Source: SAR202 cluster bacterium (GTDB lineage Bacteria > Chloroflexota > Dehalococcoidia > Lucifugimonadales > VXLM01). Taken from it: a stretch of 54,820 nt of DNA. The stretch covers positions 1 through 54,820 of the forward strand of contig JAKUTR010000016.1 of assembly GCA_022448725.1 (NCBI GenBank), written 5' to 3'. Shown here piece after piece: positions 47,296 to 52,239 of this stretch. How positions within the stretch are numbered: the stretch's first letter is position 1; every line of letters starts with the position of its first letter. The notes beneath the pieces were generated by a model. The model searched no databases. It saw only the letters and a list, made by a program, of their open reading frames with translations, and was not told the origin of the DNA. A program made the translations under genes and the position numbers.

Positions 47296-48594
47296 ATGAC
47301 GATCAATTACCCTCAATTATCCCCTGATCAGTTCGCCGCTAGGCGCAAACGCCTTATGGAATCCATGCCAAACGGCGCCACGATCCTGACCGCTGGGCAC
47401 AGTGTCGTCCGCAACCACGACGTCGACTACGAGTTTCGTCAGAAATCAACCTTCTGGTATATAACCGGGTTCGAGGAACCTGATGCGGTAGCTATCCTTA
47501 GACCAGGTGCTAGCGAACCGTACGTACTGTTCGTGAACCCATTTGACCCTGCATACGAGGTATGGGTTGGCACCCGTGCTGGTGTTGACGGCGTTACAGA
47601 AATAGGGGTGGACAAAGCTTTCTCTTTAGAGGAGTTGGACGAAAAATTGCCGGAACTACTAGAGGGCATCGAGACGCTCCATTATTCGCTTGGTAGCGAT
47701 ACTAAAATGGATGAACTCATTATGAAACTAACTACAAATCGCCGGTTAACCGGCCAGCGGGATGGCAAGTACATCAAGGAGATCATTGACCCTGAACCAC
47801 CCATCGGGCAAATGCGTCTTATAAAAACGTCTCAGGAAATTAAAGCTATCGAGAGTGCTATTGAGGTAACTGCCAAGGGTTTCGAGGCAGCAGTTCAAAC
47901 TGCAGCGCCAGGTGTCTACGAATACGAGGTTCAATCTGCTTTGGAGAACGAGTTCCGTAGACTAGGCTCGATCCGCAACGGGTACCCCTCAATAGTCGCG
48001 TCAGGGGAGAAGGCATGTATCCTCCACTATGTCACCAATAGACGTCAAATGCTTGATGGGGATTTGATCCTGATTGATGCTGGTGCCGAGGTGCACTCCT
48101 ACACAGCGGACATAACTCGTACCTGGCCGGTTAATGGTCGTTTCACACCGGAGCAGCAGGCCGTATATTCCATTGTCCTAGAAGCACAGGAGCATGCGAT
48201 CGCCGAGGTCGCTCCGGGTGTAACCATTCGCGATATACACAATAAGGCGCTTAGGGTTATTGCGAATGGACTGGTTGAATTGGGGGGACTTCATGAATCT
48301 GTCGATAGCATTATTGAAGAGGGTAAGTACATGCCATTCTATATGCACGGAACGTCTCATTGGCTTGGCCTAGACGTACACGACACTGGTGCTTATAAGC
48401 AAGATGATGAGCCATCGCCTCTCCAAGAGGGTATGGTCTTGACCGTCGAGCCGGGCATCTATTTTGGACACCAGGCCACAGATACACCGGCTCACTTCAG
48501 GGGTATAGGAATTCGTATCGAGGATAATGTTCTTGTTACGTCTAGCGGGGCCTTAAACCTTTCTGATTCAATCCCCAAGTACTCCGCTTCATAA
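47296..48594 (+). CDS. pepP: Xaa-Pro aminopeptidase (aminopeptidase P)
   Basis: This 432-residue M24 metallopeptidase removes N-terminal residues before proline. GGAGG (47286-47290) places the start at 47296. An N-terminal creatinase/AMP_N domain (residues 1-160, with FWYITGFEEPDAVAIL) precedes the pita-bread catalytic domain. Metal ligands are aspartates in LIDAGAE and ADITRTWP, histidine in GTSHWLGLDVHD, and glutamates in LTVEPGIYFG and IRIEDNVLV. It is divergent from the RidA operon and is followed, after a leader, by a P1-family peptidase, so the two may share a peptide-degrading role. Confidence 0.96.
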   Translation: MTINYPQLSPDQFAARRKRLMESMPNGATILTAGHSVVRNHDVDYEFRQKSTFWYITGFEEPDAVAILRPGASEPYVLFVNPFDPAYEVWVGTRAGVDGVTEIGVDKAFSLEELDEKLPELLEGIETLHYSLGSDTKMDELIMKLTTNRRLTGQRDGKYIKEIIDPEPPIGQMRLIKTSQEIKAIESAIEVTAKGFEAAVQTAAPGVYEYEVQSALENEFRRLGSIRNGYPSIVASGEKACILHYVTNRRQMLDGDLILIDAGAEVHSYTADITRTWPVNGRFTPEQQAVYSIVLEAQEHAIAEVAPGVTIRDIHNKALRVIANGLVELGGLHESVDSIIEEGKYMPFYMHGTSHWLGLDVHDTGAYKQDDEPSPLQEGMVLTVEPGIYFGHQATDTPAHFRGIGIRIEDNVLVTSSGALNLSDSIPKYSAS

Positions 48595-48648
48595 CGTTCC
48601 CAACACACACCTGTTAAAATATTAGGTGCAGCCAATCCTAAGGGAACG

Positions 48649-48696
48649 GTGAGCGCCAGTCGAACACGCGTACTTGTGTACGATGATTCATTCTGA
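48649..48696 (+). CDS. Possible leader peptide of 15 codons
   Basis: A GTG-started frame with AAGGGA four to eight bases upstream encodes MSASRTRVLVYDDSF and ends 11 bases before the hairpin of the following gene. No amino acid is strongly repeated, so a simple attenuation sensor is not obvious. It could be a translated leader whose ribosome position controls the downstream hairpin. Reality unproven. Confidence 0.4.
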   Translation: MSASRTRVLVYDDSF

Positions 48697-48707
48697 TTGC
48701 ATCGCTC

Positions 48708-48734
48708 GCCTCCCACGATTGGGAGGCTTTTTTT
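48708..48734 (+). terminator. Intrinsic terminator that overlaps the P1 peptidase ribosome site
   Basis: GCCTCCCA and TGGGAGGC form a perfect 8-bp stem with loop CGAT (48708-48727), followed by seven Ts (48728-48734) directly before the ATG at 48735. The 3' arm contains GGGAGG, eight bases before the ATG, the only good ribosome site. The hairpin would both end transcription and hide the ribosome site. Confidence 0.8.
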
Positions 48735-49679
48735 ATGACCGGCGGGATCACCGATATAACTGGCATCACGGTTGGGCACTGCACCGACACGGAAAACTTA
48801 ACGGGATGCACCGTAATTCTCTGCCCGGAAGGGGCAGTGGGTGGTGTGGACGTGCGGGGCTCAGCACCAGGCACACGTGAAACGGATTTGCTACGTCCTC
48901 AATCACACGTCCCTACAGTGAATGCGTTCATGCTCAGCGGCGGAAGCGCCTACGGACTAGCTTCAGCAACCGGCGTAATGAACTATCTGCAAGAGAGAGG
49001 CATAGGGTACAACGCGGGATCCATCCAAGTACCAATCGTACCGGCAGCAATTATATTTGACCAGGGAGTTGCACGTAGCAATGCATATCCCGGGGAGAAA
49101 GAAGGATATCAAGCCTGTCTGAACGCATCTGACGGTCCCATTGAAGAAGGCAACGTAGGAGCAGCCACCGGTGCGACTGTAGCAAAACTTCTGGGACCGC
49201 AAAATACCCAGCCAGGTGGCGTTGGCAGTGCGAGTGTTGATCTTGGAGATGGCCTCGTGGTTGGCGCCATCGTGGTAGTAAACGCCGTCGGCGGTATCTA
49301 CAACCCTGACGATGGGCGAATTATATCTGGCCCACGACTCGCTAACGGCGAAATGGGGGACTCAATTAAAGAATTATTGGCCATCGACTATGTCTCTCCA
49401 CAACCTTTTGGAACCAACACCACTATAGGTGTCGTAGCTACCAACGCTACCCTCAGTAAAGTTCAAACAAACCAACTCGCAGCGGTCGCTCACAACGGCG
49501 TCGCTCTAGCGGTTAGGCCTGCACATACTCCATATGATGGTGACACGATCTTTGGACTTGCCACTGGCAATATCAAGGGCGAACCTGACATGACTCGAAT
49601 CGGAGCAGCAGTAGTAAAGTGCGTGGGGGACGCAATAATCAGCGGAGTGGCCAAAGCTGCTGGATACCATAATCGGTGA
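48735..49679 (+). CDS. P1-family (DmpA-like) peptidase
   Basis: This 314-residue protein is a P1/S58-family N-terminal nucleophile hydrolase, like D-aminopeptidase DmpA and beta-peptidyl aminopeptidases. It begins GGITDITGITVGHCTD, typical of the family. VPTVNAFMLSGGSAYGLASA lies in the middle, and GGVGSASVDLGDG precedes VVGAIVVVNAVGG. S165 in VGSAS is the likely self-cleavage nucleophile. The start abuts the terminator's T-run, so expression probably depends on read-through or on a change of the leader structure. Its likely role is release of N-terminal D- or beta-amino acids or related amides. Confidence 0.93.
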   Translation: MTGGITDITGITVGHCTDTENLTGCTVILCPEGAVGGVDVRGSAPGTRETDLLRPQSHVPTVNAFMLSGGSAYGLASATGVMNYLQERGIGYNAGSIQVPIVPAAIIFDQGVARSNAYPGEKEGYQACLNASDGPIEEGNVGAATGATVAKLLGPQNTQPGGVGSASVDLGDGLVVGAIVVVNAVGGIYNPDDGRIISGPRLANGEMGDSIKELLAIDYVSPQPFGTNTTIGVVATNATLSKVQTNQLAAVAHNGVALAVRPAHTPYDGDTIFGLATGNIKGEPDMTRIGAAVVKCVGDAIISGVAKAAGYHNR

Positions 49680-49721: not shown

Positions 49722-50615
49722 ATGATTAACTATCAAACACCTATCGGGATAATTGGAGCTGGCTCAGTTGGGAAAACCCTAGCTTTGGCCATGCTCAACA
49801 AAGGCTACATCACTAATTCGACCGCGAGCAGGACTTTCGAATCAGCGAAAAGCCTGGCGAGGCTTGTACCTGGGTGTGTCGCGTATCCCGAATTACAGTC
49901 TGCCGCAGATAATGCAGAAATTATCTTCGTTACGACCTCAGATGACGCCATCGGGCAGATCGCATCTAAGATTAGATGGAGGAAGGGTCAGACAGTCATC
50001 CACTGCTCAGGAGCTGCCTCTCTTGATGTGCTCGAGCCCGTAAGACAGTACGGGGCAGTACCTGGAGCTTTCCATCCATGCCAAACCTTCTCATCCGTTT
50101 CAGAAGCAGTCGAATCACTACCAGGTTCAACATTTGCTATAGAAGGGGACGGCGACACAAGGGCAACTCTCGAACACCTAGCTACAGCGCTTGGAGGCAA
50201 TCCGATTTTCTTACGTCCAGAGCACAAACCTCTTTACCATGGCACGGTCGTGATGGCGGGAGGAATACTTAACACTCTACTTGGAGCCATTGCAGATTCC
50301 TGGGAACGTGAATTTAAGATCCCACGTAACGATGCCCTCAAAGCCCTAACCCCCATTACTAAAGGGACTGCTATCTCTCTAAGTAGCAAGGGGTTACCTA
50401 CTGCAGCTGCAGGTCCACATGTCAGAGGTGACGTTGGCACAATCAAAAAACATATCCAGTCGATTAGTCTTCAAGCTCCAGAACTACTACCAGCCTACTG
50501 CAGCATGCTACTGGCTGGTCTCGGCATAGCAGCCGAGAAAGAAGTAGCACCAGAGGAAAAGATAACAGAAATCCGAGAGATGCTAATCGAAGCAAGCGAC
50601 GGGAGGCTACCATGA
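49722..50615 (+). CDS. Rossmann-like and DUF2520 domain oxidoreductase
   Basis: A 297-residue protein with an N-terminal NADP-binding Rossmann domain (IGIIGAGSVGKTLALAML) and a C-terminal all-alpha DUF2520 domain (from about residue 130, GAFHPCQTFSSVSEA). It ends with a four-base overlap with panB (ATGA), and panC follows, so the three are an operon. This fold is related to ketopantoate reductase, the enzyme missing between PanB and PanC. A role as the ketopantoate reductase of this strain is plausible, although it is not a PanE homologue by obvious motif. AGGA eight bases before the ATG supports the start. Confidence 0.9.
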   Translation: MINYQTPIGIIGAGSVGKTLALAMLNKGYITNSTASRTFESAKSLARLVPGCVAYPELQSAADNAEIIFVTTSDDAIGQIASKIRWRKGQTVIHCSGAASLDVLEPVRQYGAVPGAFHPCQTFSSVSEAVESLPGSTFAIEGDGDTRATLEHLATALGGNPIFLRPEHKPLYHGTVVMAGGILNTLLGAIADSWEREFKIPRNDALKALTPITKGTAISLSSKGLPTAAAGPHVRGDVGTIKKHIQSISLQAPELLPAYCSMLLAGLGIAAEKEVAPEEKITEIREMLIEASDGRLP

Positions 50616-51412
50616 GACTAACGATTCGTGACTTACAAGCCTACAAGAAACGAGGCGAGAAACTGCCAATGCTAACCGCCTACGACTACCCCTTCGCAAA
50701 CCTGATTGAGCGCGCGGGTATTCCTATAATCCTAGTTGGCGATAGCGTAGGCGACAACGTCCTAGGCTATGACAACACTGTCCCAGTAACTGTGGAGGAC
50801 ATCACCCATCATCTCCGAGCCGTAGTACGAGGCACAGAAACGGCACATATCGTAGCGGACATGCCCTTCATGAGTTATCAAACTAATATCGCAGATGCCC
50901 TTCGTAATGCCGGAACGTTACTTAAGTCAGGCGCTCAATCAGTCAAACTTGAGGGTGGACGACGACTTGTTGATACTGTCAAAGAGTTGGTAGCAGCCGG
51001 TATCCCAGTTATGGGCCATATCGGTTTGACGCCTCAGTCTGTAAACCAGTTTGGTGGATACCGTGTCCAGGGTCGTACACAGGAAACCGCACAAAAACTC
51101 ATCGAGGACGCCGTCGCTCTTGAAGCTGCTGGCGTGTACGCACTGGTTCTCGAAACGGTTCCTGAAGACCTTGCGAGAACCGTTACCGGTAAAATTCAAG
51201 TTCCTACCATAGGCATCGGTGCTGGCATACATTGCGATGGTCAAGTATTGGTCATTCACGACGTGCTAGGTATCCAATCTGGTCGAGAAATGAAGCATGC
51301 CCGCAAATATGCTGACCTCGCACAGGTCATCACTGAAGCAACGAACCAATACATATCCGATGTTCAATCGGGTGGATTCCCCAGCCACGAAGAGAGTTTT
51401 AGGGCTAAGTAG
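50612..51412 (+). CDS. panB: 3-methyl-2-oxobutanoate hydroxymethyltransferase PanB
   Basis: PanB converts 2-oxoisovalerate and methylene-tetrahydrofolate to ketopantoate, the first step of pantothenate and so of CoA synthesis. The 266-residue protein has LTAYDYPFANLIERAGI, GDSVGDNVLGYDNTVPVTVE (Mg2+-site aspartate), SVKLEGG, GHIGLTPQSVNQFGGYRVQG and GIGAGIHCDGQVLVIHD. It starts at an ATG that overlaps the DUF2520 gene's stop and ends five bases before panC. Confidence 0.98.
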   Translation: MRLTIRDLQAYKKRGEKLPMLTAYDYPFANLIERAGIPIILVGDSVGDNVLGYDNTVPVTVEDITHHLRAVVRGTETAHIVADMPFMSYQTNIADALRNAGTLLKSGAQSVKLEGGRRLVDTVKELVAAGIPVMGHIGLTPQSVNQFGGYRVQGRTQETAQKLIEDAVALEAAGVYALVLETVPEDLARTVTGKIQVPTIGIGAGIHCDGQVLVIHDVLGIQSGREMKHARKYADLAQVITEATNQYISDVQSGGFPSHEESFRAK

Positions 51413-51417
51413 TACCG

Positions 51418-52239
51418 ATGGAAGTCATTACCACAGTAGCCGATTTTCGAGGTGCGACACGCTCAGTCGAGCGTCCTATGTCGCTAACTCCTACCATGGG
51501 TGCACTCCATGAAGGGCACATATCCCTAATCCAACGGGCTCAAGAAGAAAACCAAACGTCAGTTGTCAGCATTTTTGTGAATCCCGCTCAGTTTGGCCCA
51601 TCCGAGGACTTTGGAAGATACCCACGTGAAATGGAACATGATTTGAATCTACTGCATGGTACTGGAGTTGATTTCATATTTGCTCCCTCCACCGTCGAAA
51701 TGTATCCGGAGGGATTCAAGACTCACATTGAAGTGGAGCAAATCAGCGAAAAAATGGAAGGATCGTATAGACCGAATCACTTCCGAGGTGTAGCTACTAT
51801 TGTGTGTAAGCTGCTATCTATCATCCGGCCTGACAGACTATATTTGGGCCAGAAAGATGCCCAACAAAACCTCGTAATCAAACGGTTGAATAACGATTTG
51901 AACCTTGGTGTCGAGATTGTAGTTTGTCCAACTGTCCGTGAACCCGATGGGCTAGCCCTCAGCAGTCGTAACCAATACTTGAACCCAGAGGAGCGGAAAG
52001 CTGCCACAGTTTTACACCGAGCTCTTCTGTTAGCAGAGGAGTCCGGTAGAACAAACCCATCTGACATAAAGCGCGATATGATAGCGTTGATTGAATCGGA
52101 ACCCTTAGCCCGGATTGACTACGTAAGCATCGTAGATGCAGACAGTCTCGATAAACTAGGTGAATTCGATGGTCATGCTCTTGTAGCGCTAGCTGTATAT
52201 ATTGGTGACACTCGGCTGATAGATAACGTTTTGATCTGA
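51418..52239 (+). CDS. panC: Pantothenate synthetase PanC
   Basis: PanC joins pantoate and beta-alanine with ATP to give pantothenate. The 273-residue protein has the HxGH motif in PTMGALHEGHISL, then SIFVNPAQFGPSEDF, YLGQKDAQQNLVIKR, and the KMSKS-like SSRNQYLN motif (LALSSRNQYLNPEE). It follows panB after five bases in the same operon. No panD is in the window, so beta-alanine must come from elsewhere. Confidence 0.98.
   Translation: MEVITTVADFRGATRSVERPMSLTPTMGALHEGHISLIQRAQEENQTSVVSIFVNPAQFGPSEDFGRYPREMEHDLNLLHGTGVDFIFAPSTVEMYPEGFKTHIEVEQISEKMEGSYRPNHFRGVATIVCKLLSIIRPDRLYLGQKDAQQNLVIKRLNNDLNLGVEIVVCPTVREPDGLALSSRNQYLNPEERKAATVLHRALLLAEESGRTNPSDIKRDMIALIESEPLARIDYVSIVDADSLDKLGEFDGHALVALAVYIGDTRLIDNVLI

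Follow-up and report, generated by a model that had tools for sequence, protein, structure and literature searches.

The window, by which we mean the whole 54,820-nucleotide stretch of SAR202 cluster bacterium DNA analysed here (contig JAKUTR010000016.1), carries four successive genes on its forward strand. The first (48735-49679) encodes an S58/P1 peptidase of the DmpA/NylC/ThnT-like kind (Pfam PF03576), whose most similar solved structures are NylC-type amide hydrolases and ThnT. The bond on which ThnT acts is the amide bond of pantetheine, and the window gene may encode a pantetheine or beta-alanyl amide hydrolase that supplies pantothenate salvage. We did consider it as a simple stand-in for PanD, and dropped the idea because several relatives carry both. 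In a separate count that is uncorrected for phylogeny, panD (aspartate decarboxylase) was seen in 0 of 28 screened genomes with a single-hairpin leader like that of the window versus 18 of 33 with a tandem pan leader (see below). The P1 protein, used as a query against the contig collection, retrieved no related loci. Next comes a DUF2520/Rossmann protein (49722-50615; PF10728, PF10727), probably a PanG-type ketopantoate reductase; a passage in PMC4572677, citing Miller 2013, describes the DUF2520 protein as a likely enzyme of this type, with a Francisella homologue. It is followed by panB (50612-51412; above the TIGR00222 cut-off) and panC (51418-52239; above the TIGR00018 cut-off), and this gene order identifies a pantothenate (vitamin B5) operon.

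Between the end of pepP at 48594 and the start of the peptidase gene lies a compact leader, all of it on the forward strand. An extended -10 element, TGTTAAAAT (48612-48620, with TG at 48612-48613 and TAAAAT at 48615-48620; the window has only a weak -35), places the probable transcription start at about 48625-48628. Comparison across relatives delimits a sensor hairpin at 48625-48657, at the 5' end of the transcript, with a 27-nt invariant core, GCAGCCAATCC-TAAG-GGAACGGTGAGC (48628-48654), whose loop is NNNN in the relatives; its stems are GC/GC, GCC/GGU and UCC/GGA, and its internal loops A/GA and AA/AC. A variable linker (48658-48702), unalignable between families, leads to an intrinsic terminator, GCCTCCCA-CGAT-TGGGAGGC (48708-48727; eight pairs and a 4-nt loop), and a run of seven T (48728-48734), together the GC-rich hairpin and U-run by which such terminators are recognised. 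The ATG at 48735 follows directly, and the ribosome site GGGAGG (48721-48726) lies inside the terminator's 3' arm, a placement that two congeners (L016 and L017, with GGGGAGG) share by eye. A GTG-opened frame of 15 codons (48649-48696; GTG 48649-48651, TGA 48694-48696) overlaps the hairpin, and we judge it not to be a functional leader peptide. A preliminary description made from the letters alone had already pointed out the frame, the terminator with its seven T, the buried ribosome site and the adjoining ATG, all of which are there. The limits that it gave the leader, 48641-48737, are too narrow, since half of the core falls outside them and transcription probably starts near 48625.

The same description proposed two mutually exclusive structures, and here it was right. 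GGTGAGCG (48648-48655) and CGCTCGCC (48703-48710) can form a helix that includes one G-U, and this helix in fact extends further, GGGA (48642-48645) pairing with TCCC (48711-48714). The 5' side of this antiterminator (48642-48655) is thus the 3' strand of the sensor hairpin itself, and its 3' side, CGCTCGCCTCCC (48703-48714), overlaps the 5' arm of the terminator, so that a conserved hairpin domain is joined by a shared strand to an expression platform, as in riboswitches. For the leader from 48600 to 48734 the folding energy is -47 kcal/mol (z -4.0 relative to dinucleotide shuffles) and the terminator segment has a z of -3.7; for each, at most 1 in 200 shuffles is as good. When folding is followed along the growing chain, the core hairpin persists to about 48705 and the antiterminator takes over from 48710 on, and in the completed leader the hairpin plus terminator (-40.4 kcal/mol) and the antiterminator (-40.6 kcal/mol) are nearly equal. 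Of these two folds the terminator one is the stabler in most relatives, and read-through should therefore rest either on folding kinetics, with the antiterminator arising before the terminator, or on a factor. The window's minimum-energy fold also gave us the idea of an extra helix joining the 5' strand of the hairpin (AGCCAAUCC) to the terminator loop and 3' arm, which we rejected, as 14% of shuffled strands did as well across 18 leaders.

The pairing between sensor strand and terminator arm coevolves. Among 24 representatives, several of whose terminator arms were set by hand beforehand, the duplex of the core's 3' half with its own terminator 5' arm averages -8.2 kcal/mol versus -6.3 for non-cognate arms (z -5.5, with none of 20,000 permutations as good), and the window's own subtype taken alone gives z -4.8, again with none of 20,000 permutations as good. 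Examples are AATCGGAAcGG/CCtTTCCGATT in L003, TCAGGGAAcGG/CCTTCCCTGA in L008 and ACAGGAAcGG/CCTTCCTGT in L119. At one further locus (L129; G037, 463-560), which has no obvious terminator, the hairpin's 3' strand ATGTGATGG matches CCATCACAT before the start codon over 9 bp, and CCATCA has a second possible partner in TGATGG at the start codon; this single case, read by eye, suggests that the same strand logic may act on translation, in a possible translational version of the switch.

What relatives conserve is not the terminator. When the leader was compared with 98 related genomes, the conserved stretch proved to be 48610-48656, and in many relatives 100-300 nt separate it from the P1 gene downstream. 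In 24 leaders 18 of the 27 core columns are invariant, paired positions included, while the linker to the terminator cannot be aligned. Within the core only the outermost pair varies on both sides, so that invariance is the main support for the stem of the window's subtype. All 30 non-redundant leaders have a -10-like hexamer (at least 4 of 6 positions), which as a rule ends 6-8 nt ahead of the core and in most cases has TG before it; this places the hairpin at the very 5' end of the transcript. Conservation of the hairpin core did not extend to the short frame: its counterparts in relatives run from 3 to 52 codons with unrelated residues, and only the first two, V-S, are common, because the conserved RNA motif GTGAGC happens to encode both.

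A scan of the contig collection with the core gave 21 loci, 20 of them labelled Chloroflexota, Dehalococcoidia or SAR202, and those with a readable next gene lead into P1-DUF2520-panB or into DUF2520. The remaining match, labelled Phycisphaerales (L077), has no adjoining pantothenate gene and was set aside as chance. At an E of up to 0.01 a covariance model of the core matched 46 of 250 genomes of the order, and reading of the neighbouring DNA showed that pantothenate genes follow the hairpin in 40 of the 250, all SAR202-type Chloroflexota; six weak matches (G098, G029, G151, G160, G204 and G243) and a second one in G033 adjoin no pantothenate gene and were for that reason counted as chance. 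Among 393 genomes drawn from the class, the sole match outside the order (L139) was weak, lacked a neighbouring pantothenate gene and was likewise rejected. The leader heads pantothenate operons both with and without a P1 gene, and the gene upstream varies while leader and operon stay together. The suggestion of a regulated leader on a P1 peptidase thus holds for the regulated leader but not for the peptidase.

An RNA motif of such operons, pan, was reported in 2010 by Weinberg et al. (PMC2864571), who took it for an element ahead of panB, panC and panD operons that probably binds a dimeric protein by a mechanism then unknown; the papers mentioning it that turned up in a non-exhaustive search of the literature, PMC5670726 and PMC4342826, only list it. 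Rfam scans of the window leader, at gathering and relaxed thresholds, returned no family, and the pan model (RF01749) gave no match in 48500-48850 at E up to 5, its gathering score of 36.2 not being reached. However, all 40 verified single-hairpin genomes carry the hairpin upstream of an operon of the panB/panC/panD type, as pan RNAs are, and RF01749 occupies the same operon position in relatives without the single hairpin, many more of which show both pan hairpins by eye and by descriptor. Tandem pan leaders are in fact common at this operon in the order (L039, L045, L047, L048, L052, L054, L058, L059, L061 and others). Rfam gathering scans of five tandem pan loci found none, and an RF01749 search above cut-off recovered 1 of 96 genomes versus 60 of 250 with our local model of the second hairpin.

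In these relatives the first pan hairpin (19 sequences) covaries strongly, with none of 500 shuffles reaching the observed score, and has invariant bulged A residues in the layout NGC-5 bp-A-CC..GG-5 bp-A-GCN. One single-hairpin leader, L060, fits that layout exactly (TGC-AGCCA-A-TC..GA-TGGTG-A-GCC), a pan descriptor fits L056 and L060 as well as the relatives' first pan hairpin, and L123, L126, L128 and L129 are further exact fits by eye; together with L131 they form graded intermediates that keep the pan layout. With a model of the first pan hairpin we obtained 30 matches in 28 single-hairpin loci; nine of these fall on the cores, versus 0.15 expected, and two of the nine belong to other single hairpins, L151 and L153. 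The window core scores only 6 bits with this model. Its subtype reads GGA-A-CGGUG where others have GGA-UGGUG, and the extra A faces the bulged A: the 3' bulged A of the pan layout is kept and the 5' A lies opposite the extra one, in the AA/AC internal loop. The window's subtype is tied to pan through the intermediates.

The second pan hairpin, which its model finds in 60 of 250 genomes of the order, is found in 0 of the 40 single-hairpin genomes; tandem and single forms never occur in one genome or family, a lack of overlap with a chance of 5.5e-6 when phylogeny is left uncorrected. No second hairpin was found in the single leaders, and so the tandem arrangement of 'most' pan RNAs is not what they have. 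Pairing of the terminator arm in tandem pan leaders gave a mixed outcome, several of their terminators not being found, and we do not propose it for them. We read the window element as a single-hairpin relative of pan, and not as a member of RF01749 as modelled, because of the shared operon position, the intermediates, the core matches, the lack of co-occurrence and the missing second hairpin. Two observations stand beside this. In L151 and L153 (G021, G055) the -10 box is followed immediately by another kind of single pan-like hairpin, GCATCTGACC..GGCAGATAGC, ahead of P1; no companion hairpin turned up, and this may be an independent single form. In addition, G050, G051 and G110 each hold two separate matches to the second-hairpin model, possibly marking a second pan-controlled gene.

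We think it probable that this leader is a cis-acting transcription-termination switch of the pantothenate operon whose sensor is a single hairpin related to one pan hairpin. Located at the 5' end of the transcript, the sensor hairpin would be the first element to fold. Unless something held it, its 3' strand (GGGA..GGUGAGCG) would open and capture the emerging 5' arm of the terminator, and RNA polymerase would read into S58/P1-panG-panB-panC. A signal from the pathway, whether a pantothenate or coenzyme A metabolite or a protein carrying that information, would stabilise the hairpin, and with its strand still occupied the terminator would form, transcription would stop and the ribosome site would be lost. 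The conserved hairpin, its operon context, the two exclusive folds and the coevolution of sensor strand and terminator arm are computational observations, and the structural switch that they suggest is well supported by comparison; we infer a signal that binds the hairpin and thereby switches the operon off. Since the leader heads pantothenate operons and is not specific to P1, the signal most likely belongs to the pantothenate/coenzyme A pathway, and we see the leader's most likely role in feedback on pantothenate synthesis, where a held hairpin would stop transcription.

Either a metabolite or a protein could do the holding. The wiring is equally compatible with a protein-binding attenuator, in which a regulatory protein of the PyrR or TRAP kind binds the hairpin and favours termination, the RNA itself sensing no metabolite. 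A hairpin so small, simple and strongly conserved in sequence, even at paired positions, would suit a protein, as would the dimeric protein suggested for the tandem pan motif (Weinberg 2010, PMC2864571), but with one hairpin in place of two the dimeric argument loses force, and we regard this as a serious possibility that stops short of being probable. That the 27-33 nt hairpin is a minimal metabolite-sensing domain, and the leader a riboswitch for a compound of the pantothenate or coenzyme A pathway, we put forward as a rather doubtful proposal; if true, it would show the orphan pan motif working with one hairpin and not two.

It is also conceivable that the leader is a new and unrelated RNA motif that resembles the pan hairpin, and sits where pan sits, by convergence. 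The poor scores of the window's subtype with pan models, the missing second hairpin and the separation of single and tandem types by family would all fit this. We nevertheless think it unlikely, given graded intermediates with the exact pan layout, a 3' half, GGTGAGC, identical to that of the relatives' first pan hairpin, and the same position after a -10 box at the same operon. Far less plausible is a plain pepP terminator with the P1 gene started independently: the hairpin and U-run are typical enough and pepP ends 114 nt before them, but pepP and the hairpin are separated by a conserved -10 box and the upstream gene differs among relatives that keep leader and operon together, so that this is not merely the terminator of pepP, and in addition its arm coevolves with the leader hairpin and the ATG comes directly after the U-run. 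Finally, the preliminary idea that ribosome occupancy of the 15-codon frame selects the fold, which a GGGA-like site a few bases upstream of the GTG and the two exclusive folds would favour, is barely credible and leader-peptide attenuation is rejected, since the frame is not conserved, contains no run of regulatory codons and opens with a GTG that lies inside the hairpin stem and belongs to the RNA core.

Why does this matter? Since 2010 the pan motif has remained an orphan, and a natural single-hairpin form provides a compact wiring diagram, which names the switching strand and predicts that a held hairpin turns the operon off, in a hairpin small enough for a direct test with ligand or protein. 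It also adds pantothenate control to SAR202-type Chloroflexota, where Rfam's model missed it. As for known systems, in PyrR- and TRAP-type attenuators a held hairpin favours the terminator of a biosynthetic operon, and the window leader is alike in this logic, with no sequence match to the Rfam PyrR element. With transcriptional OFF riboswitches it has in common a 5' aptamer-like domain, a strand-sharing antiterminator and an intrinsic terminator just before a biosynthetic operon, the ligand in the window being only a candidate; in 2022 natural coenzyme A riboswitches were still not known (PMC9971707). From the pan motif (RF01749) the single leaders differ in having one hairpin, whose 3' strand is the antiterminator, and the window's subtype also in its extra A; Rfam's tandem model does not match the window leader. 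Like pan, however, the window leader stands upstream of a panB/panC operon, and the divergent single leaders share with it the base stem, the 3'-side bulged A, the middle stem, the 5'-side A and the UC/GA top, together with the GGTGAGC 3' half of the first pan hairpin in relatives of the order.
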